In this document: piece by piece, positions 5,260 to 34,793 of the stretch
Layout: each line of letters begins with the position of its first letter
Position numbering within the stretch: the stretch's first letter is position 1
Origin: an uncultured Bacteroidota bacterium
Lineage (GTDB): Bacteria; Bacteroidota; Bacteroidia; Bacteroidales; CG2-30-32-10
Direction of reading: 5' to 3'
DNA length: 35,174 nucleotides
Assembly (NCBI GenBank): GCA_903889915.1
Contig: CAISZK010000040.1
Span: 1 to 35,174, forward strand
Position numbers and translations under genes: made by a program
The notes under the pieces: generated by a model
Seen by the model: the letters and a program-made list of their open reading frames with translations, nothing else
The model's database searches: none
Told to the model about the DNA's origin: nothing

Positions 5260-5365
5260 TAAAAGAAGTTAGAAAATAAATATCAGATGTTGTTCAAGAT
5301 TCTAATTGTTGATTCGTGATTTTATTGTGCAAGTTTCAAGGGTGCTGGATTACCACCAATTTTCC

Positions 5366-5386
5366 GATGACTATTGACAAATGACA
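5366..5386. repeat. Three seven-base units directly behind the panB stop
   Basis: GATGACT, ATTGACA and AATGACA on the plus strand. On the panB coding strand they read TGTCATT TGTCAAT AGTCATC, starting with the base after the TAG stop (5387-5389). Confidence 0.55.
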
Positions 5387-6223
5387 CTAATATTGTTCTC
5401 TCTGATTTGGGAAATCCACACTCTTCACATCTTTGATGTATGCTTCAACAGAACCCTTGATCTCTTCATAAAGGTTGTGATACCTGCGCAAATAACGCGG
5501 AGAGAATTCCTGGGTGATTCCAAGCATATCATGAAGAACAAGCACCTGCCCGTCAACACCACTTCCTGCACCTATCCCAATAGTAGGCATCTTTAATTGC
5601 TTTGTAACCTGTGTGGCAAGTTTGGCAGGTATCTTTTCCAGCACCAAAGCAAATGTTCCTGCCTTTTCAAGTAAATGCGCATCCTCAACCAATCGCTCTG
5701 CTTCATCTTTATCAGTCGCCCTTACAATGTATGTTCCAAATTTATGAATTGCCTGTGGTGTCAGTCCGAGGTGACCCATTACCGGGATTCCTGCAGACAA
5801 TATCCTTTCGATAGATTCGATCACTTCTTTTCCGCCTTCCAGTTTCACTGCATCAGCTCCCGATTCCTTCATGATACGAATAGCTGAATTCAAAGCTTCT
5901 TTTGAATTCCCCTGGTAAGTTCCGAAAGGCATATCAACAACTACCAAAGCTCTTGAAACAGCACGGGTAACTGATGAAGCATGATAGATCATTTCATTCA
6001 GTGTGATCGGAAGTGTTGTTTTATGACCGGCCATCACATTGGAGGCTGAATCCCCAACAAGGATCACATCTATTTTAGCGCTGTCAAGAATTCTTGCAGT
6101 AGAATAGTCATAGGCAGTCAGCATGGCTATCTTTTCGCCCTGCAATTTCATTTCTTTTAGAACATGGGTAGTGACTTTATTTACGATACGAAGGGTTGTC
6201 ATCTCTTTATTTTTCTTTTGCAT
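5387..6223 (-). CDS. panB: 3-methyl-2-oxobutanoate hydroxymethyltransferase
   Basis: PanB transfers a hydroxymethyl group from 5,10-methylene-tetrahydrofolate to 2-oxoisovalerate, giving ketopantoate, the first committed step of pantothenate and CoA synthesis. 278 residues, close to the usual 260-280. Visible family residues are VGDS with Asp58 and DMPFG with Asp97 (metal ligands), VKLEGG at 126-131, GHLGLTPQ at 150-157 and LVLEKIP with Glu196, the predicted general base. The start at 6223 gives MQKKNKE; an in-frame ATG at 6202 (MTTLRIV) is an equally credible start. panC and panD are not in the window. Confidence 0.97.
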
Positions 6224-6624: not shown

Positions 6625-6740
6625 TGGCTTCAATTTCATTCCACATTCAGACATTTTCAACAAGATCGTTTTTAGAATGATTTTCAATCCAATATATTTC
6701 TTTGCAGCAAATTTGAGTTTAATACGAAACAATTGAATCA

Positions 6741-7000
6741 GGAGTGACGACCTTGAGGTAGGAGCGAAAACCTTGAGGTAGGAGCGACAACCTTGAGATA
6801 GGAGCGACAACCTTGAGGTAGGAGCGACAACCTTGAGATAGGAGCGACAACCTTGAGATAGGAGCGACAACCTTGAGGTAGGAGCGAAAACCTTGAGGTA
6901 GGAGCGAAAACCTTGAGATAGGAGCGAAAACCTTGAGGTAGGAGCGAAAACCTTGAGGTAGGAGCGAAAACCTTGAGATAGGAGCGACGATGTCGAGGAG
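6741..7000. repeat. 20-bp tandem repeat array, 12 regular units plus a decayed one
   Basis: Twelve contiguous 20-base units of the form GGAGCGAMAACCTTGAGRTA cover 6741-6980, followed by a diverged unit at 6981-7000. Variation is almost confined to two positions: base 8 (A or C) and base 18 (G or A). There are no spacers, so it is not CRISPR. Because 20 is not a multiple of three but 60 is, the minus strand stays open in all three frames and yields long meaningless frames rich in LLPQG and SYLKV. These should not be annotated as proteins. Confidence 0.95.
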
Positions 7001-13752: not shown

Positions 13753-14340
13753 ATGATAGAGCAACTCATCAACTGGGACAAATCAATGCTTCTTTTCCTT
13801 AATGGAATGCACAATTCCTTCTGGGATTTTATGATGTACTGGGTGAGTTATAAATTCACATGGATTCCCTTTTATCTTTTTCTTCTTTTCCTTGTAATTA
13901 AAAATTACAAGATCAGAACTATTGATGTTTTAATTTGCGCAGCACTGTTGGTAGCATGCACAGATCTCTGTTCTGTTCATTTATTCAAAGAGGTTTTTCA
14001 TCGTCTGCGTCCATGTCAGGATCCAACAATAAAAGATATGGTGCACCTTGTGAATGGTGATTGTGGAGGCCTTTACGGCTTTGTTTCTTCACATGCTGCA
14101 AATACTTTTGGGGTGTGTTTCTTCGCGATAAACATTTTGGGTAAAAAAGTAAAACACCTGACCGTCGTATTGATTGTGTGGGCAATTGTTGTCTCTTACT
14201 CCCGCATTTACCTGGGTGTTCACTATCCTCTGGATGTGCTGTGTGGCGCTATAATCGGAATATTATTCGGCAGTGTTATTGGCAAAACATTTATTTGGTA
14301 CTACAATAAGTATATTCTGAAAAAAGTCAATGGTCAATAG
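13753..14340 (+). CDS. PAP2-family membrane phosphatase
   Basis: 195 residues with several membrane segments. All three PAP2 motifs are present: K79-x6-R86-P87 (KEVFHRLRP), SSH at 112-114 in place of the usual PSGH, and SRIYLGVHYPLD (150-161) with the catalytic His157 and Asp161. Such enzymes remove phosphate from lipid pyrophosphates or phosphatidic acid on the outer face of the inner membrane, for example undecaprenyl pyrophosphate or lipid A phosphate. The exact lipid is not decidable. The last codons (KVNGQ and the TAG stop) are made from a seven-base repeat that continues into the next gene's stop. The promoter is weak but possible at 13729. Confidence 0.93.
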   Translation: MIEQLINWDKSMLLFLNGMHNSFWDFMMYWVSYKFTWIPFYLFLLFLVIKNYKIRTIDVLICAALLVACTDLCSVHLFKEVFHRLRPCQDPTIKDMVHLVNGDCGGLYGFVSSHAANTFGVCFFAINILGKKVKHLTVVLIVWAIVVSYSRIYLGVHYPLDVLCGAIIGILFGSVIGKTFIWYYNKYILKKVNGQ

Positions 14341-14415
14341 TCAATAGTCAAAAGTCAAAAGTCAATGGTCACTAATGACTAATGACTAATGTCTGATGAC
14401 TGATGACTGATGACT
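14325..14415. repeat. Seven-base tandem array containing both convergent stop codons
   Basis: Thirteen units of exactly seven bases. The first seven are of the AGTCAAT type (AGTCAAT, GGTCAAT, AGTCAAT, AGTCAAA, AGTCAAA, AGTCAAT, GGTCACT). The last six are of the AATGACT/GATGACT type, which is the opposite orientation. The PAP2 TAG stop (14338-14340) lies inside the array and the Nim-like TAG stop (14416-14414) overlaps its end. The two halves could pair in the transcript. Confidence 0.9.
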
Positions 14416-14887
14416 AGTACAGATTCCCGAATTCTTTTCCTGTCATTTCATCAATCACAACTTTGTAAACAAGCACGCCATTAATGGAAGGAACAGAAAA
14501 TCCAAATTCTTTTCCTGTATATTGCTTCATGATGATGTTCATTGCTTCAACTTTCAGTTCATAATTCTCAATGAATTCAATATTGCCGTAACATAGGACA
14601 CTTTTATAAAACATGCTGTAACTGCAGGCCATATTTTCACTTTGAAAATTCAACTTGTGTGCAGTTGAAAAAGCAATGCAAACCTGGCTGCTCTTTTTCA
14701 AAATACTTATTTTTTTCCCTTCCGGTGCTGAGTGCAGGTAAATAGTATTTTCTCTGTATCCGAAATTAAAAGGAACCACATAAGGATTGTTGTTTTCATC
14801 CACCATACCCACATAGCAGCAATCGCAATTATTGATGATCTCTTCCTTTTCGCTAACGTTTGTAATGACTCTTTTCTTTTTTGGCAT
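14414..14887 (-). CDS. Nim-like pyridoxamine 5'-phosphate oxidase-fold flavoprotein
   Basis: 157 residues. The layout is that of the NimA/PPOX-like split barrel: CCYVGMVDENNNPYVVPFNFGY (about 23-44), then TIYLHSAPEGKKISIL (48-63), then QVCIAFSTAHKL, YSMFYKSVLCYGNIEFI and a C-terminal GKEFGF block. Nim proteins are FMN-binding reductases; some Bacteroides members confer 5-nitroimidazole resistance, while many homologues are harmless chromosomal flavoproteins of unknown substrate. No resistance claim is made. The gene is convergent with PAP2 and shares the heptad array with it. A TAATTTTG box lies before the start. Confidence 0.88.
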   Translation of the reverse strand: MPKKKRVITNVSEKEEIINNCDCCYVGMVDENNNPYVVPFNFGYRENTIYLHSAPEGKKISILKKSSQVCIAFSTAHKLNFQSENMACSYSMFYKSVLCYGNIEFIENYELKVEAMNIIMKQYTGKEFGFSVPSINGVLVYKVVIDEMTGKEFGNLY

Positions 14888-17440: not shown

Positions 17441-17620
17441 TCGCAAACAGGCTCATTTTCTTACAACGAGGTCCATTTTCTTACGATGAGCTTTTTTTTC
17501 TTACGATGAACTTCGTTTTCTTAGGACAAGGTCCATTTTCTTACGATGAGCCTCGTTTTCTTACGATGGGCTTTTTTTTCTTACGGTAAGGCTCGTTTTG
17601 TCAAAATGGGTTTTTTTATA
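17441..17620. repeat. Second 20-bp tandem repeat array
   Basis: Nine contiguous 20-base units from 17441 (a tenth, weaker, at 17421), with consensus TTACGATGAGSYYCRTTTTC. The units vary more than in the first array, especially in the second half, where the variants are GTCCATTTTC, CTTTTTTTTC and CNTCGTTTTC. It lies between the convergent stops of the barrel gene and the O-methyltransferase gene. Frames read through it are artefacts. Confidence 0.85.
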
Positions 17621-19865: not shown

Positions 19866-22319
19866 ATGAAAAATTTAAAAAACTTTATCAGGGTGACTTT
19901 CATTCTTTCACTCTTTACTCTTTTCTTTACACCTGTCATTGCACAAATACCACAGGGATTAAACTACCAGTCTGTGGCACGTGATGCATCAGGGCATTTA
20001 ATTTCCAATCATGCAGTCAGTGTGAGGATCAATATCCTTTCGGGATCAGGAACAGGGATATTGCAATGGCAGGAATTGCACAGTGTGACAACAAACCAAT
20101 TTGGATTATTCACGCTTATCATTGGCCAGGGAACAAGCACCGGTCTGGGAGCATCGGCCTCTTTTTCCACTATCAACTGGATTAACGCAAGCTATTTTTT
20201 AAAGGTTGAAGTTGACTACACCGGTGGAACAAATTATACAGCTATGGGGACATCACAATTATGGTCTGTTCCATACGCTTTAGAAGCAGGAAACGCTCTT
20301 AATAACCAGGCAGGACCAACAGGAGCAACAGGTCCAACCGGTCCTTCGGGAATTGATGGTTCAACAGGGATCACAGGACCTACCGGATCCGGGGCAACAG
20401 GGCCAACAGGGCCAACAGGAATAATTGGACCCACAGGGCCAGGTGTAGGAGCTACAGGCCCAACAGGAGAAACAGGTTCAACAGGTCCATCAGGAGCTGA
20501 CGGAATCAATGGTGTTACAGGCCCAACAGGTGCATCAGGTTTGAACGGATCAACAGGTTCTACAGGACTAACAGGGCCTACAGGAGTGATAGGACCAACA
20601 GGACCCGGTGTAGGAGCTACAGGACCGACCGGAGCTACTGGCACGGCAGGAACAAATGGTTTAACAGGACCTACAGGCGCTACTGGTTTAGCAGGTACTG
20701 CTGGTACAACAGGAGTAACCGGACCTACAGGTTTAACAGGAGTTACAGGGACTACCGGACCATCATGGACTATCAGCAGTGTTGCATACAACACTACAGG
20801 AACTATCAGCGTTGGCACAAGTATCCCTTCAACTATAACATCAACAGGTGCAGCATGGCTTACAGCCGGAAACAGCGGAACAATTTCAGGAACTAATTTC
20901 ATAGGAACAACAGACAATCAAAATCTGATCATTAAAACCAATGGCACTGCAGCAACAAACGAAAGAATGCGTTTTATGACTACTCCGCAGGTCCTTATCA
21001 ACAGCACTTCAGCACAAACAGGCGACCTGTTCTCCGTTTACGGAACATCATACTCCGGCGCTCTTAATTCAATAGCAAATCAAACAGACTTCCCCATTAA
21101 TGGATACAGTGCAGGAACAGCATGTGCAATTTATGGCGAAAACACCGGTGCTGGACAGGGTGTTTTAGGGTACAACAGCAGCACAGGTGCAGGTGTTGTA
21201 GGCAGAAACAACAACAATGCAGGATATGGTGTTTATGGTATCAATTCAAATACTTTAGGGGTTGGAGTTATCGGAATCGGAAATAATATCACCTCTATTA
21301 ATATTCCTACAGGAGGCGCAGGAAGTGCATCTTTGGGAACCGGCGTTGGTTCTTACTCAAAAGCAACAGCAATATCTTCCGGAATCGGAGTGGTGGGTAT
21401 TGGTAATAACAGTTCGTCTTTCAGCTCCATTGCCGATGGTTGCGGGGGAGCTTTTACAGGTACTGCCAATGGTTCATATTCTTATGCAACCGATGTACAG
21501 GGCACGGGTGTGTTGGGTGTTGGAAATAATGCCGCGAATATCGGAGCATTGGCTGCCGGAAGCGGAGGCGCTTTTACGGGAACTTATGCAGGGGCTTATG
21601 GTCTTGGCCTCAATACAGGCAATGGAACAGGCGTGATTGGCGTAGGAAATAACCTTCCAAATGCACTAACACTAAGCCAGGGAAGTGGTGGCGCTTTCTT
21701 TGGCAATACAGTGGGTGTATATGGTTATTCAGCTACCATTGGCGGCGGTTTCGGTGGTTATTTCGAGAATAGCGGGGCAGACTATGCTTATGTTGGAGGA
21801 AATCAAGGCGGCACAAGTTATAAAATAATTGGTACCGGTACAGTTGCTACCATTGTTGACAGAACAGACGGCAGCAAAGCCACTATGTTTTGCGCTGAAT
21901 CACCTGAAATACTTTTCCAGGATTATGGAACAGGCAAACTTGTGAATGGCAAAGTTCACATTTCACTTGATTCGATTTTCAGCAACAATATTTTTGTTGA
22001 TGCAAATTATCCTTTGAAAGTTTTTGTTCAATTGAATGGTGACTGTAAAGGCGTCTATGTGACCAATCGCAGTGCTACAGGCTTTGATGTAATAGAACTA
22101 AACAGCGGGACATCCAATACAGAATTTACATGGACAGTGGTTGCCAACCGCAAAGACAGGTATGAAAACGGGCAACTTGTTTCGAAACATATTGGTGTCA
22201 GATTCCCGGATGCTCCTTTAAAACTTGATACCAAAACACAGAAAATAATTAAATCAACACCTGTTATCAACAACACTATTGATAAAAAAGGAATTGAAAT
22301 TTTGAAGAAAATGAAATAG
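19866..22319 (+). CDS. Secreted collagen-like (Gly-x-Thr) repeat surface protein
   Basis: 817 residues with a signal peptide (about 1-26, ending PVIAQ). The N-terminal domain (27-145) begins [16 protein letters not shown], a block common in Bacteroidota surface proteins. Residues 150-300 (20313-20766) form a collagen-like run of Gly-x-y triplets rich in GPTG and GATG; Thr in the third position is often glycosylated in bacterial collagen-like proteins. It is followed by glycine-rich repeats containing GVYG and GVIGIGNN (about 400-640) and a conserved beta-type end ([18 protein letters not shown] onward, about 676-785). It likely forms a fibre on the cell surface. No sorting tail of type A or B is recognised at the C-terminus. 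It has its own terminator. DNA repeats in the collagen part invite length variation by recombination or slippage. Confidence 0.9.
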
Positions 22320-30044: not shown

Positions 30045-30188
30045 GTTTATCTTTCTTTGATTATGATTATTTCACCCTACTGTTTTAAAAGGTTGTTTTT
30101 ATTTACCACATAGAAACAATAGGAACATAGGTTTCACATAGTTTATTTTCAAAAAGAAAAATTCACGATTTTCACGTTTGTAAATTTT

Positions 30189-30223
30189 CTATTATCTCTC
30201 TTCTATCTTCTATTTTCTATTTT
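30189..30223. repeat. Seven-base pyrimidine repeat, CTATCTT class, behind rnpB
   Basis: Five units: CTATTAT, CTCTCTT, CTATCTT, CTATTTT, CTATTTT. It starts about 10 bp beyond the predicted 3' end of rnpB on the minus strand. CTATTAT, CTCTCTT and CTATCTT also occur in the array at 1414-1455. Confidence 0.6.
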
Positions 30224-31896: not shown

Positions 31897-33444
31897 CTAT
31901 CTGAAAACAACAATGATCATACTTCCCTGCAACGCCGAAGTGTTGTCACCACCGGTTTCAACTTTGTAAGGACCGTAATCTCTGCCCTGCAATGTGAACA
32001 CATGTGAACCGGCTGTTGTAATTAATTGATAACCTACCAGGCTGTATTGTGCAAAAGGGATAAGGCCAAAATCAGCATCAACACTATACCTTCCCCATGC
32101 TCCGTTTGAAAAATCGTTGCCATCAAAGGCTACCCTGTAGTCAACTGTTGTGTAATAGGCATCGGATGTACCATTGCAATCGTTGTCAATCATCAATCCA
32201 CCGCTTGCCCACACCATTACTTTATCTCCTGCATTCAGTGTGATCGTCTGCGTACAGCCGGTGATATCAGTAAAGAGTGTTGTTGCCAATGCAGGCAGAC
32301 AAACAGTAGCGGAACTATTGATCGCATAAATATTATTCCCAAGCAATGCGCTTGCCCATGATAAATTTCCGCTTCCATCGTTTTTCAGAACCTGGTCAAC
32401 CGTGCCCTGTGTGGCCGGAAAGCTGTATGGAACATTATTTACCTTATTAAGATTACCTGTTGAATTAACCTGAAATTGCGAAGTTGTACCCACATTCAAT
32501 TTAGAAACCGGGCTTGTATTGCCTATACTGACATTTCCTGAACCATCTTCAAACACCGGCGCCGTTGTACATGTAGCCGAAGAGCCATTTGATTTCATCA
32601 AATAATTTGTGCTTGCACATCCAACAGGACCAGTTGCACCTGTTGCTCCAACTGCACCTGTTGGTCCCACAGAGCCTGCAATTCCTGCCGCACCTGTTGG
32701 TCCAATAGAACCTGCAACTCCTGCTGCACCTGTTGGTCCTGTCGCACCATTACTCCCTGCTGCTCCGGTAGCGCCAGTATTCCCTGTTGCACCGTTAGCG
32801 CCGTTAGCGCCGTTAGCGCCTGTTGGTCCCTGAATACCCTGAGCACCCGTTGCACCATCAGCGCCTGAAGGTCCTGTCGGACCAACATTACCCTGGATTC
32901 CTGTTGCTCCGTTTGCTCCTGCCGGGCCTGTTGGACCTATCTGTCCTTGTATTCCTGTCGCTCCGTCAGCGCCTGAAGGACCGGTAGGGCCTGTGATTCC
33001 TGCAATGCCTGTTGGTCCTGTAGCACCTTGTAATCCTGTTGCACCATTGGTGCCTGCAGGTCCTGTCGGACCTGTAATTCCGTTTGTTCCTGCAGCGCCT
33101 GTGGGACCTGCTACTCCTGCAGGACCTGTAGGCCCTGTGCCACCTGTCAATCCCATGATCGGCAACCATTGCGTTCCATCAAAATACCAAAACTGACTCA
33201 AATTGGTATCATAGACCAACAGTCCTTTTTGTGCTGCCCCGATGGGTGTTATGTTCAACCTTTGTGTTGTTGTCATTCTCGGTATCAGCACCCCTTTATT
33301 ACTCGAGGAAACATCGAGGATAGCAAACGGATCCGGCGGGTTGCCATTGTTGTTGATTGACACATTCTGATTCTGCGAGAATGCACTTATGCTAATCATT
33401 AAAAACAGAACCAATGCAAGGAAACTTTTTCTGATTTTTTTCAT
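31897..33444 (-). CDS. Second secreted collagen-like surface protein
   Basis: 515 residues with a signal peptide (about 1-23, ending AFSQ). The segment [19 protein letters not shown] (44-62) with [20 protein letters not shown] (74-93) is a block common in Bacteroidota fibre-like surface proteins. The collagen-like Gly-x-y run is at 98-276 (32617-33153), mostly GPTG, GATG and GANG. The C-terminal part (about 277-515) is beta-rich with Cys pairs ([20 protein letters not shown] near 415) and ends GSMIIVVFR. It is related in style, not in sequence, to the larger collagen-like protein at 19866. It lies in a minus-strand unit with the CHU_C gene upstream (113 bp gap filled by a heptad array) and the small secreted gene downstream. 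Confidence 0.9.
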
Positions 33445-33453
33445 AAAAATATT

Positions 33454-33558
33454 TTGACTAAAGACTTTTGACTATTGACTAATGACTATTGACTAATGAC
33501 TATTGACTAATGACTAATGACTAATGACTAATGACTAATGACTATTGACCATTGACTT
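33454..33558. repeat. Seven-base tandem array, 15 units, between CHU_C and collagen-like genes
   Basis: Fifteen in-phase units of exactly seven bases, mainly ATGACTA and TTGACTA. On the coding strand of the CHU_C gene it starts at the TAA stop and reads AGTCAAT GGTCAAT AGTCATT and so on. It occupies nearly the whole gap and ends 9 bp before the start codon of the collagen-like gene, so it also forms that gene's leader. A 21-base stretch (33539-33559, minus strand) is identical to 14323-14343. Confidence 0.92.
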
Positions 33559-34793
33559 TATTTCGAAACCACCATTATTACACCTTTTACAGTCTGATCG
33601 CCTCCCGACCCCGGTATTGTTGCGATATAGTAATAAGTTCCCGGAGAAACTTTTTTACCATTTACCGTACCGTCCCAGCCATCATTCCCATCCGACAATT
33701 GTTCACCCCAACGGTTCACGATCTTCACCTTGTAGCCTTTCAGGAAATAATCGTTGATCCCATCACCGTCGGGAGTAAATGCATTTGGTATCCTTAAATT
33801 AAATTCGCTCAAAGCCCACCACGAATAAAAATTATCGTTTGCAATGTCAGTTGCAGTTACAGTTTTATCTGCGGCATTGCAGGCGCCCATCAAACCTATG
33901 TCATTCCATTTATGAAGCACATCATTATAACGAATGGCTTTAAGATTCTCTTCTATCATCCCCGGATTGTCGGCCTGGTCAACATCATCTGAGGTGTACT
34001 GAAAACTTAATGAGACTTCAGGTTTTACCGTATAGTCAGGCCTGATCTCCCAATACCTGTCAGCAAGATTTTCAGTTTTAAAAGTATCCAGTGAACCGAC
34101 ACCGGTGGGTAAAGGTATATTTAATGAACCGCTGGTGGGATAGGTTGCAAAAACTACCGAGCCTGTTGCAGGACTTGCAGCAGTCAATGTTTGCATTTCA
34201 ATTTTCAGATCGTCCGACGAAGACATGCCCGAACCAAACGGGACCTTATACGTTCCTATTCCATTGCCGATTTTCCATTCCAGTTCACCCAGACTTCCGG
34301 GAAGAGTTTCACTTTTGATATAGCCGCTCAGGTAACTAATAGCCCCTGTTGCATCATTATTGATCCTGATCAAATGTTGATTCAGATCCAAAACCCCGTC
34401 AATTGTAAGTATCCCGTTCACTTCGCAATTACTCAGGTTGAGAGTTTTTGTGGAATTTTTTATTTCAAGGTTTTCAAAGAAAAAAGGTGTTGAACCCTGA
34501 ATATTCTGATTGGCGCCATCAAGAATAACATCGCCATCCGGTACTGATTCAATATTGATAAAAACGTTGCCTGAGGAAGTATTATTCAGGTCGCCATTGA
34601 TGATCAGTGTTCCGTCAAGGTCAATCTTGCCATCAGTTCCGCTTGTTTGGGTATTTGTAAAATCATGAACATTCACAAAGGCGCCCTGTTCAATGTTTAT
34701 GTTCATTCCATTATTTACAAAACCCGTTTGTCCTGTAACAGATTGGAAGAATAAAAAAGATATTGGGATAAGGAAGTAATTGATTTTTTTCAT
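33558..34793 (-). CDS. Secreted protein with CHU_C (type IX secretion, type B) sorting domain
   Basis: 411 residues with a signal peptide (about 1-21, ending SVTGQ). The body (about 25-325) is beta-rich with repeated short motifs (GTLIINGDLNNTSSGNVFINI, GILTIDGVLDLNQHLIRI), suggesting a beta-helix or adhesin-like stalk. Residues from about 328 begin FNLRIPNAFTPDGDGINDYF, then VKIVNRWGEQLSDGNDGWDG and GTYYYIATIPGSGGDQTVKGVIMVV, the gliding-motility-associated CHU_C domain. It should be exported through the type IX system and attached to the cell surface. The ligand is unknown. A weak promoter-like pair is upstream, and the gene leads the minus-strand surface-protein unit. Confidence 0.92.
   Translation of the reverse strand: MKKINYFLIPISFLFFQSVTGQTGFVNNGMNINIEQGAFVNVHDFTNTQTSGTDGKIDLDGTLIINGDLNNTSSGNVFINIESVPDGDVILDGANQNIQGSTPFFFENLEIKNSTKTLNLSNCEVNGILTIDGVLDLNQHLIRINNDATGAISYLSGYIKSETLPGSLGELEWKIGNGIGTYKVPFGSGMSSSDDLKIEMQTLTAASPATGSVVFATYPTSGSLNIPLPTGVGSLDTFKTENLADRYWEIRPDYTVKPEVSLSFQYTSDDVDQADNPGMIEENLKAIRYNDVLHKWNDIGLMGACNAADKTVTATDIANDNFYSWWALSEFNLRIPNAFTPDGDGINDYFLKGYKVKIVNRWGEQLSDGNDGWDGTVNGKKVSPGTYYYIATIPGSGGDQTVKGVIMVVSK

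Follow-up and report, generated by a model that had tools for sequence, protein, structure and literature searches.

The closest described counterparts of the repeat considered here are the GGGANTN heptads of Xanthomonas and Nostoc, which are intergenic and conserved at positions 1–4 and 6 (Rehm et al. 2015, PMC4692102). These heptads lie on the coding strand 0–50 bp past stop codons or overlapping them, and on the non-coding strand before starts; their pairs occur in convergent order only, and their positions are largely common to two Xanthomonas species (PMC4692102). A second heptad, TAACTGA, has been described in Beggiatoaceae, Cyanobacteria and some Bacteroidetes (MacGregor 2015, PMC4679880). 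In Beggiatoaceae it is found mainly just upstream of starts, in short sets of 2–6 units and with one inverted pair (PMC4679880). Two related findings are cited in these papers (PMC4679880, PMC4692102): among the longer microsatellites of bacteria a period of 7 predominates (Mrazek et al. 2007), and Calothrix has heptamer repeats (Mazel et al.).

The window (the whole 35,174-nucleotide stretch of DNA analysed here) contains a pure heptad array at 14326–14414, in which seven GTCANNN units are followed by six NNNTGAC units between two convergent genes. The features of this locus and the two further GTCA arrays in the window are as follows.

13753–14340, + strand: PAP2-family phosphatase gene (domain PF01569)
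14320–14325, − strand: six-U run directly 3' of the array hairpin in the Nim-like transcript, terminator-like on the − strand only
14326–14372, + strand: forward block of seven GTCANNN heptads, coding the last PAP2 codons (V-N-G-Q) and TAG
14338–14340, + strand: PAP2 stop codon TAG, in phase with the array
14373–14414, − strand: reverse block of six heptads, GTCANNN on the − strand (five exact GTCA, one GACA)
14414–14416, − strand: Nim-like stop codon TAG, in phase with the array
14414–14887, − strand: Nim-like gene, pyridoxamine 5'-phosphate oxidase family (PF12900)
5365–5385, − strand: short GTCA array of three heptads, 1 bp past the TAG of the gene at 5387–6223
33452–33556, − strand: second GTCA array, 14 heptads in one direction, 1 bp past the TAA of the CHU_C-domain gene at 33558–34793

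In the forward block GTCA recurs at 14326, 14333, 14340, 14347, 14354, 14361 and 14368, and the reverse block, read inward, has TGAC at 14411, 14404, 14397, 14383 and 14376 and TGTC at 14390. Both halves were detected as period-7 arrays by TRF. The reverse block abuts the Nim-like gene and provides its TAG, and the 73-bp spacer between the two stops is array throughout. The seven and six opposed heptads and both TAG stops lie where the sequence-only reading had placed them. The name Nim-like, which came from the same reading, needed correction: the domain matches of the protein are to PF12900/PF01243 (pyridoxamine 5'-phosphate oxidase fold), and we keep the name here as a label only. The PAP2 assignment was confirmed by PF01569.

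The window also holds other repeats. Short heptad arrays of other units lie at 908–948, 1419–1455 and 30184–30223, the first two a few bp from predicted stops. Within a long intergenic stretch, 6740–6988 holds 12 tandem copies of a 20-bp repeat, AGGAGCGACAACCTTGAGGT, with a 60-bp higher-order period, and an intergenic 20-bp tandem repeat of TTTTCTTACGATGAGC type at 17449–17617 shows higher-order periods of 40 and 60 bp. Two long genes (19866–22319 and 31897–33444) encode collagen-like G-P-T/G-A-T triplet repeats, and the CHU_C gene at 33558–34793 belongs to type IX secretion.

The source draft genome comprises 5.55 Mb, and the array survey covered 1.42 Mb with 1033 genes predicted by a simple codon-usage method. 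Three consecutive TGACTAA units (TGACTAATGACTAATGACTAA, up to 3 mismatches) gave 1006 matches in the genome, compared with 9 for the reversed pattern. Composite arrays of GTCA heptads numbered 131 (156 blocks) in the 1.42 Mb and 1 in a Markov control, and 113 of the 131 run in one direction. Their density was about 44/Mb on contigs taken regardless of arrays, which corresponds to roughly 245 per genome, and 114/Mb on contigs picked for holding arrays. Period 7 alone was enriched, with 159 runs against at most 7 for every other period from 4 to 12.

Unit variation was measured on those arrays that were found by self-similarity only. The G, T, C and A of the core deviate from the array consensus in 6.5, 6.4, 7.2 and 4.5% of units, respectively, and the T at position 6 in 16%, whereas the free positions 5 and 7 deviate in 36% and 29%. 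Adjacent units are more alike than shuffled ones at lags 1–2 (0.35 vs 0.25), a signature that points to local tandem duplication. Plain duplication predicts neither the orientation rule described below nor the near-fixed GTCA; the latter could reflect constraint or, alternatively, the common ancestry of a small number of unit variants. A growth direction was looked for within the arrays, and the 5' and 3' halves and flanks proved alike. The longest convergent arrays, of 20–27 units (5256–5457 on L245; 2981–3127 and 8638–8779 on L266), contain single variants such as GTCAACA that are locally amplified, together with alternating 14-bp pairs.

The position and direction of the arrays follow the edges of coding sequence. 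Blocks beginning between −25 and +12 bp of a stop carry GTCA on the coding strand in 68 cases and on the other strand in 3; among genes with a high coding score and a product of 300 aa or more the counts are 35 sense and 2 antisense, and 62 of 65 stop-anchored ends are in sense orientation (p 2e-15). Placement within 10 bp of a stop was observed in 44%, compared with about 1.5% under uniform random placement, and stops outnumber starts as array sites. At starts, blocks sit on the non-coding strand (17 vs 3), a weaker bias that involves approximate start positions. Since the coding strand is used at stops and the non-coding strand at starts, a block points outward at either edge. The bases between the stop and the first GTCA mostly form one more decayed unit, as judged by eye, so that the array starts directly where the coding sequence ends. 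Only 2 of the 131 arrays fall inside coding sequence. Blocks paired within 80 bp are convergent in all 25 instances and in no other order, and the earlier description of the locus as two 3' tails meeting fits this genome-wide rule, by which a gene end comes with a block of its own that points outward.

About 6–7% of genes carry an array. TAG is over-represented among the stops at arrays (OR 2.7, p 0.0009), and arrays are found at 11.3% of convergent 3' ends compared with 5.1% of co-directional ends, a two-fold excess that could indicate a 3'-end function. Heptads without GTCA (AAATTCC, AAAATAG, AAACAAC and more) also gather at stops, with 54 edges no more than 12 bp away against 23.5 expected, and are not start-anchored (18 vs 17.6 expected). 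Near tRNA 3' ends, two antisense arrays lie 48 and 83 bp away, although with only 17 tRNAs the sample is too small for power. We considered an artefact in which open reading frames tend to end within stop-bearing arrays; 50 of the 68 anchored stops precede the array, and such an effect would be visible in antisense orientation too. A role in supplying stops in all frames was rejected, because the antisense orientation, with a TGA in each unit, offers a larger number of stops but hardly occurs at stop codons. According to one report, fail-safe stops are not selected in eubacteria (PMC6764699).

Comparison with relatives supports lineage specificity of the heptad units, as five members of the same family (G001–G005) gave 0–6 pattern matches against 1006 in the source genome. 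Across the order, 287 of 393 genomes have zero matches to the unit; after the source genome, the highest counts are 201 and 153. In G001, the nearest relative compared, non-repetitive DNA follows both genes; its PAP2 protein (70% identity) has 196 aa and ends KIVIPTQ-TAG, where the source protein has 195 aa and ends KKVNGQ-TAG, and its Nim-like protein (68% identity) has 157 aa and ends EFGNLS-TAA, where that of the source has 157 aa and ends EFGNLY-TAG. G003 has PAP2 and Nim-like as a tight convergent pair without an array. Because both relatives are array-free at this locus, the array is new in the source lineage, where it replaced the gene ends and changed protein length by at most one residue. 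Array-free orthologues end at nearly the same residue, and none combines a retained KVNGQ with absence of the repeat. The proposal that the repeat overwrote both gene ends holds for approximately four PAP2 codons; for the Nim-like gene it applies to the stop alone.

Arrays of other sequence occur elsewhere in the order. G041, from another family, carries TKACTAA blocks downstream of stops and AGTMATT blocks upstream of starts, with a stop orientation of 11 to 1 in what are small counts; most of its anchored stops lie inside the array, and only the orientation bias was used. The outward rule holds in G041 too, with another sequence on the outward strand. Four further genomes of the order (G177, G195, G143 and G252) have many matches to the reversed control pattern, which lies within 3 mismatches of TAACTGA-like units, and this suggests lineage-specific heptads of yet other sequence.

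With moderate confidence, we interpret the stretch as a lineage-specific heptad array that is bounded by coding edges and is one copy of a genome-wide period-7 class. Its units would arise through local tandem duplication, and an array would persist wherever coding sequence is the only limit. The stop edge may be open to takeover because the array brings its own TAG, while the start edge would not be; an array that carries its own stop can replace a gene end without lengthening the protein. In the PAP2/Nim-like pair, two outward blocks would in this way have filled the entire 73-bp spacer.

The main rival to an array bounded by coding edges is outward transcript termination, which we regard as possible, if rather doubtful. 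The blocks would then be transcript-end elements at which the outgoing RNA, reading GUCANUN, is bound or terminated, and a convergent pair would form a two-way boundary. The constancy of the outward-reading strand at both stops and starts agrees with this proposal, as does the enrichment at convergent ends; moreover, a simple scan found ordinary terminators beside only 2 of 62 arrays, compared with 24 of 250 other gene ends, and in Xanthomonas transcripts start or stop more often in G4-capable than in control heptads (PMC4692102). However, the outward sequence is a different one, TKACTAA, in G041, arrays accompany only a small minority of genes, and most genomes of the order lack the GTCA unit. 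At the PAP2/Nim-like array, a stem-loop with a U-run is seen on the Nim-like strand and is absent on the PAP2 strand, and a terminator consensus scan of 14200–14550 gave no match. Rho loading was considered as well: in sense, GUCA gives one UC per heptad, whereas the G041 equivalent UKACUAA gives none. The absence of YC dimers from the G041 block, with which Rho loading is inconsistent, makes a simple Rho loading site unlikely.

It seems improbable that the opposed halves exist for the sake of a long RNA or DNA hairpin common to both transcripts, for example as a bidirectional terminator or a post-stop structure. The sequence-only reading had noted that the halves can pair into a shared hairpin, and a strong fold is indeed predicted on both strands (−37.4 kcal/mol, z −7.64, on the + strand; −32.8 kcal/mol, z −5.98, on the − strand), with the six-U run following the stem on the Nim-like strand. 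One report describes structures just past stop codons that insulate translation (PMC7518266). As a purpose, however, pairing is not supported by the arms themselves. Across 25 convergent pairs, identical units are shared between arms at 5.4%, half the 10.9% of random pairing (0 of 3000 shuffles), and the folds of real pairs are less stable than those of pairs made from pooled units (mean z +0.8). Arms that share fewer units than chance indicate that the hairpin is not maintained for pairing, and we rejected it as a selected feature on this ground; the dissimilarity agrees with perfect palindromes being selected against or lost. In addition, single-direction arrays, which are the great majority, cannot fold in this way, and G041 has no paired blocks.

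Deposition of the arrays by a mobile or templated machine, for example a Y1 transposase of the RAYT type or a reverse transcriptase akin to telomerase, is very improbable. High copy number, patchy spread and a conserved tetranucleotide would suit such an origin, and Y1 transposase genes are present. Yet the three genomes richest in arrays (G000, G073 and G041) yielded no reverse transcriptase (PF00078), Y1_Tnp is equally common in array-poor relatives, and neither a target duplication nor an element core was seen. Both enzymes were rejected as array makers, as neither shows an association. Finally, the view that ordinary gene ends happen to match the repeat, so that its overlap with the stops is due to chance, can draw on the array-free G001 PAP2, whose Q-TAG ending means that a CAATAG seed may be ancestral, but it is hardly credible given genome-wide anchoring with 62 of 65 stop-anchored ends in sense orientation (p 2e-15).

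The likeness between lineages raises a broader idea, which we consider unlikely, namely that a single undescribed process working in a seven-base register makes or reads these arrays in several phyla, recognising where coding ends and placing outward arrays at gene edges independently of the unit. This would group the GTCANTN of the source genome with the TKACTAA of another family, the GGGANTN of Xanthomonas and the TAACTGA of Beggiatoaceae. The heptads of Xanthomonas and Nostoc have been studied as G-quadruplex formers, and finding the same layout without the G-runs that had seemed to account for it separates layout from quadruplex structure. It suggests that the layout, rather than the unit sequence, is what needs explaining, and the excess of 7-nt repeats that has long been observed in bacteria becomes a testable rule on coding edges.

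REP/BIME elements with RAYT transposases are likewise high-copy, intergenic and often located just downstream of genes. REPs are palindromes of 20–40 nt. The arrays described here resemble them in copy number, intergenic location and proximity to gene 3' ends; unlike REPs, a heptad block is non-palindromic and shows no link to the abundance of Y1_Tnp. The period of 7 is shared with the microsatellites of Mrazek et al. 2007 and the Calothrix heptamers, as these are cited in the papers above. With TAACTGA (PMC4679880) the arrays have in common an intergenic seven-base tandem structure, one orientation per gene edge and a patchy distribution across phyla, but they lie mainly at stops, reach about 20 units and form many convergent pairs, and GTCANTN is neither a rotation nor a complement of TAACTGA. 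The likeness to GGGANTN (PMC4692102) extends to the seven-base unit with positions 1–4 and 6 conserved and 5 and 7 free, to the use of the coding strand at or overlapping stops and the non-coding strand upstream of starts, and to pairs that are convergent only. The differences are that anchoring here is tighter, mostly 0–10 bp, and that the core is GTCA rather than GGGA, with no G-tracts, so that GTCANTN cannot form G-quadruplexes. Whereas the two Xanthomonas species largely share repeat positions, the relatives compared here are more distant and lack the GTCA unit. Since no GGG run recurs per GTCANNN unit, the repeat belongs to a sister class of the GGGANTN repeat and is not that repeat itself; the class represented at 14326–14414 is a non-G-quadruplex variant of the known gene-edge heptad arrays.
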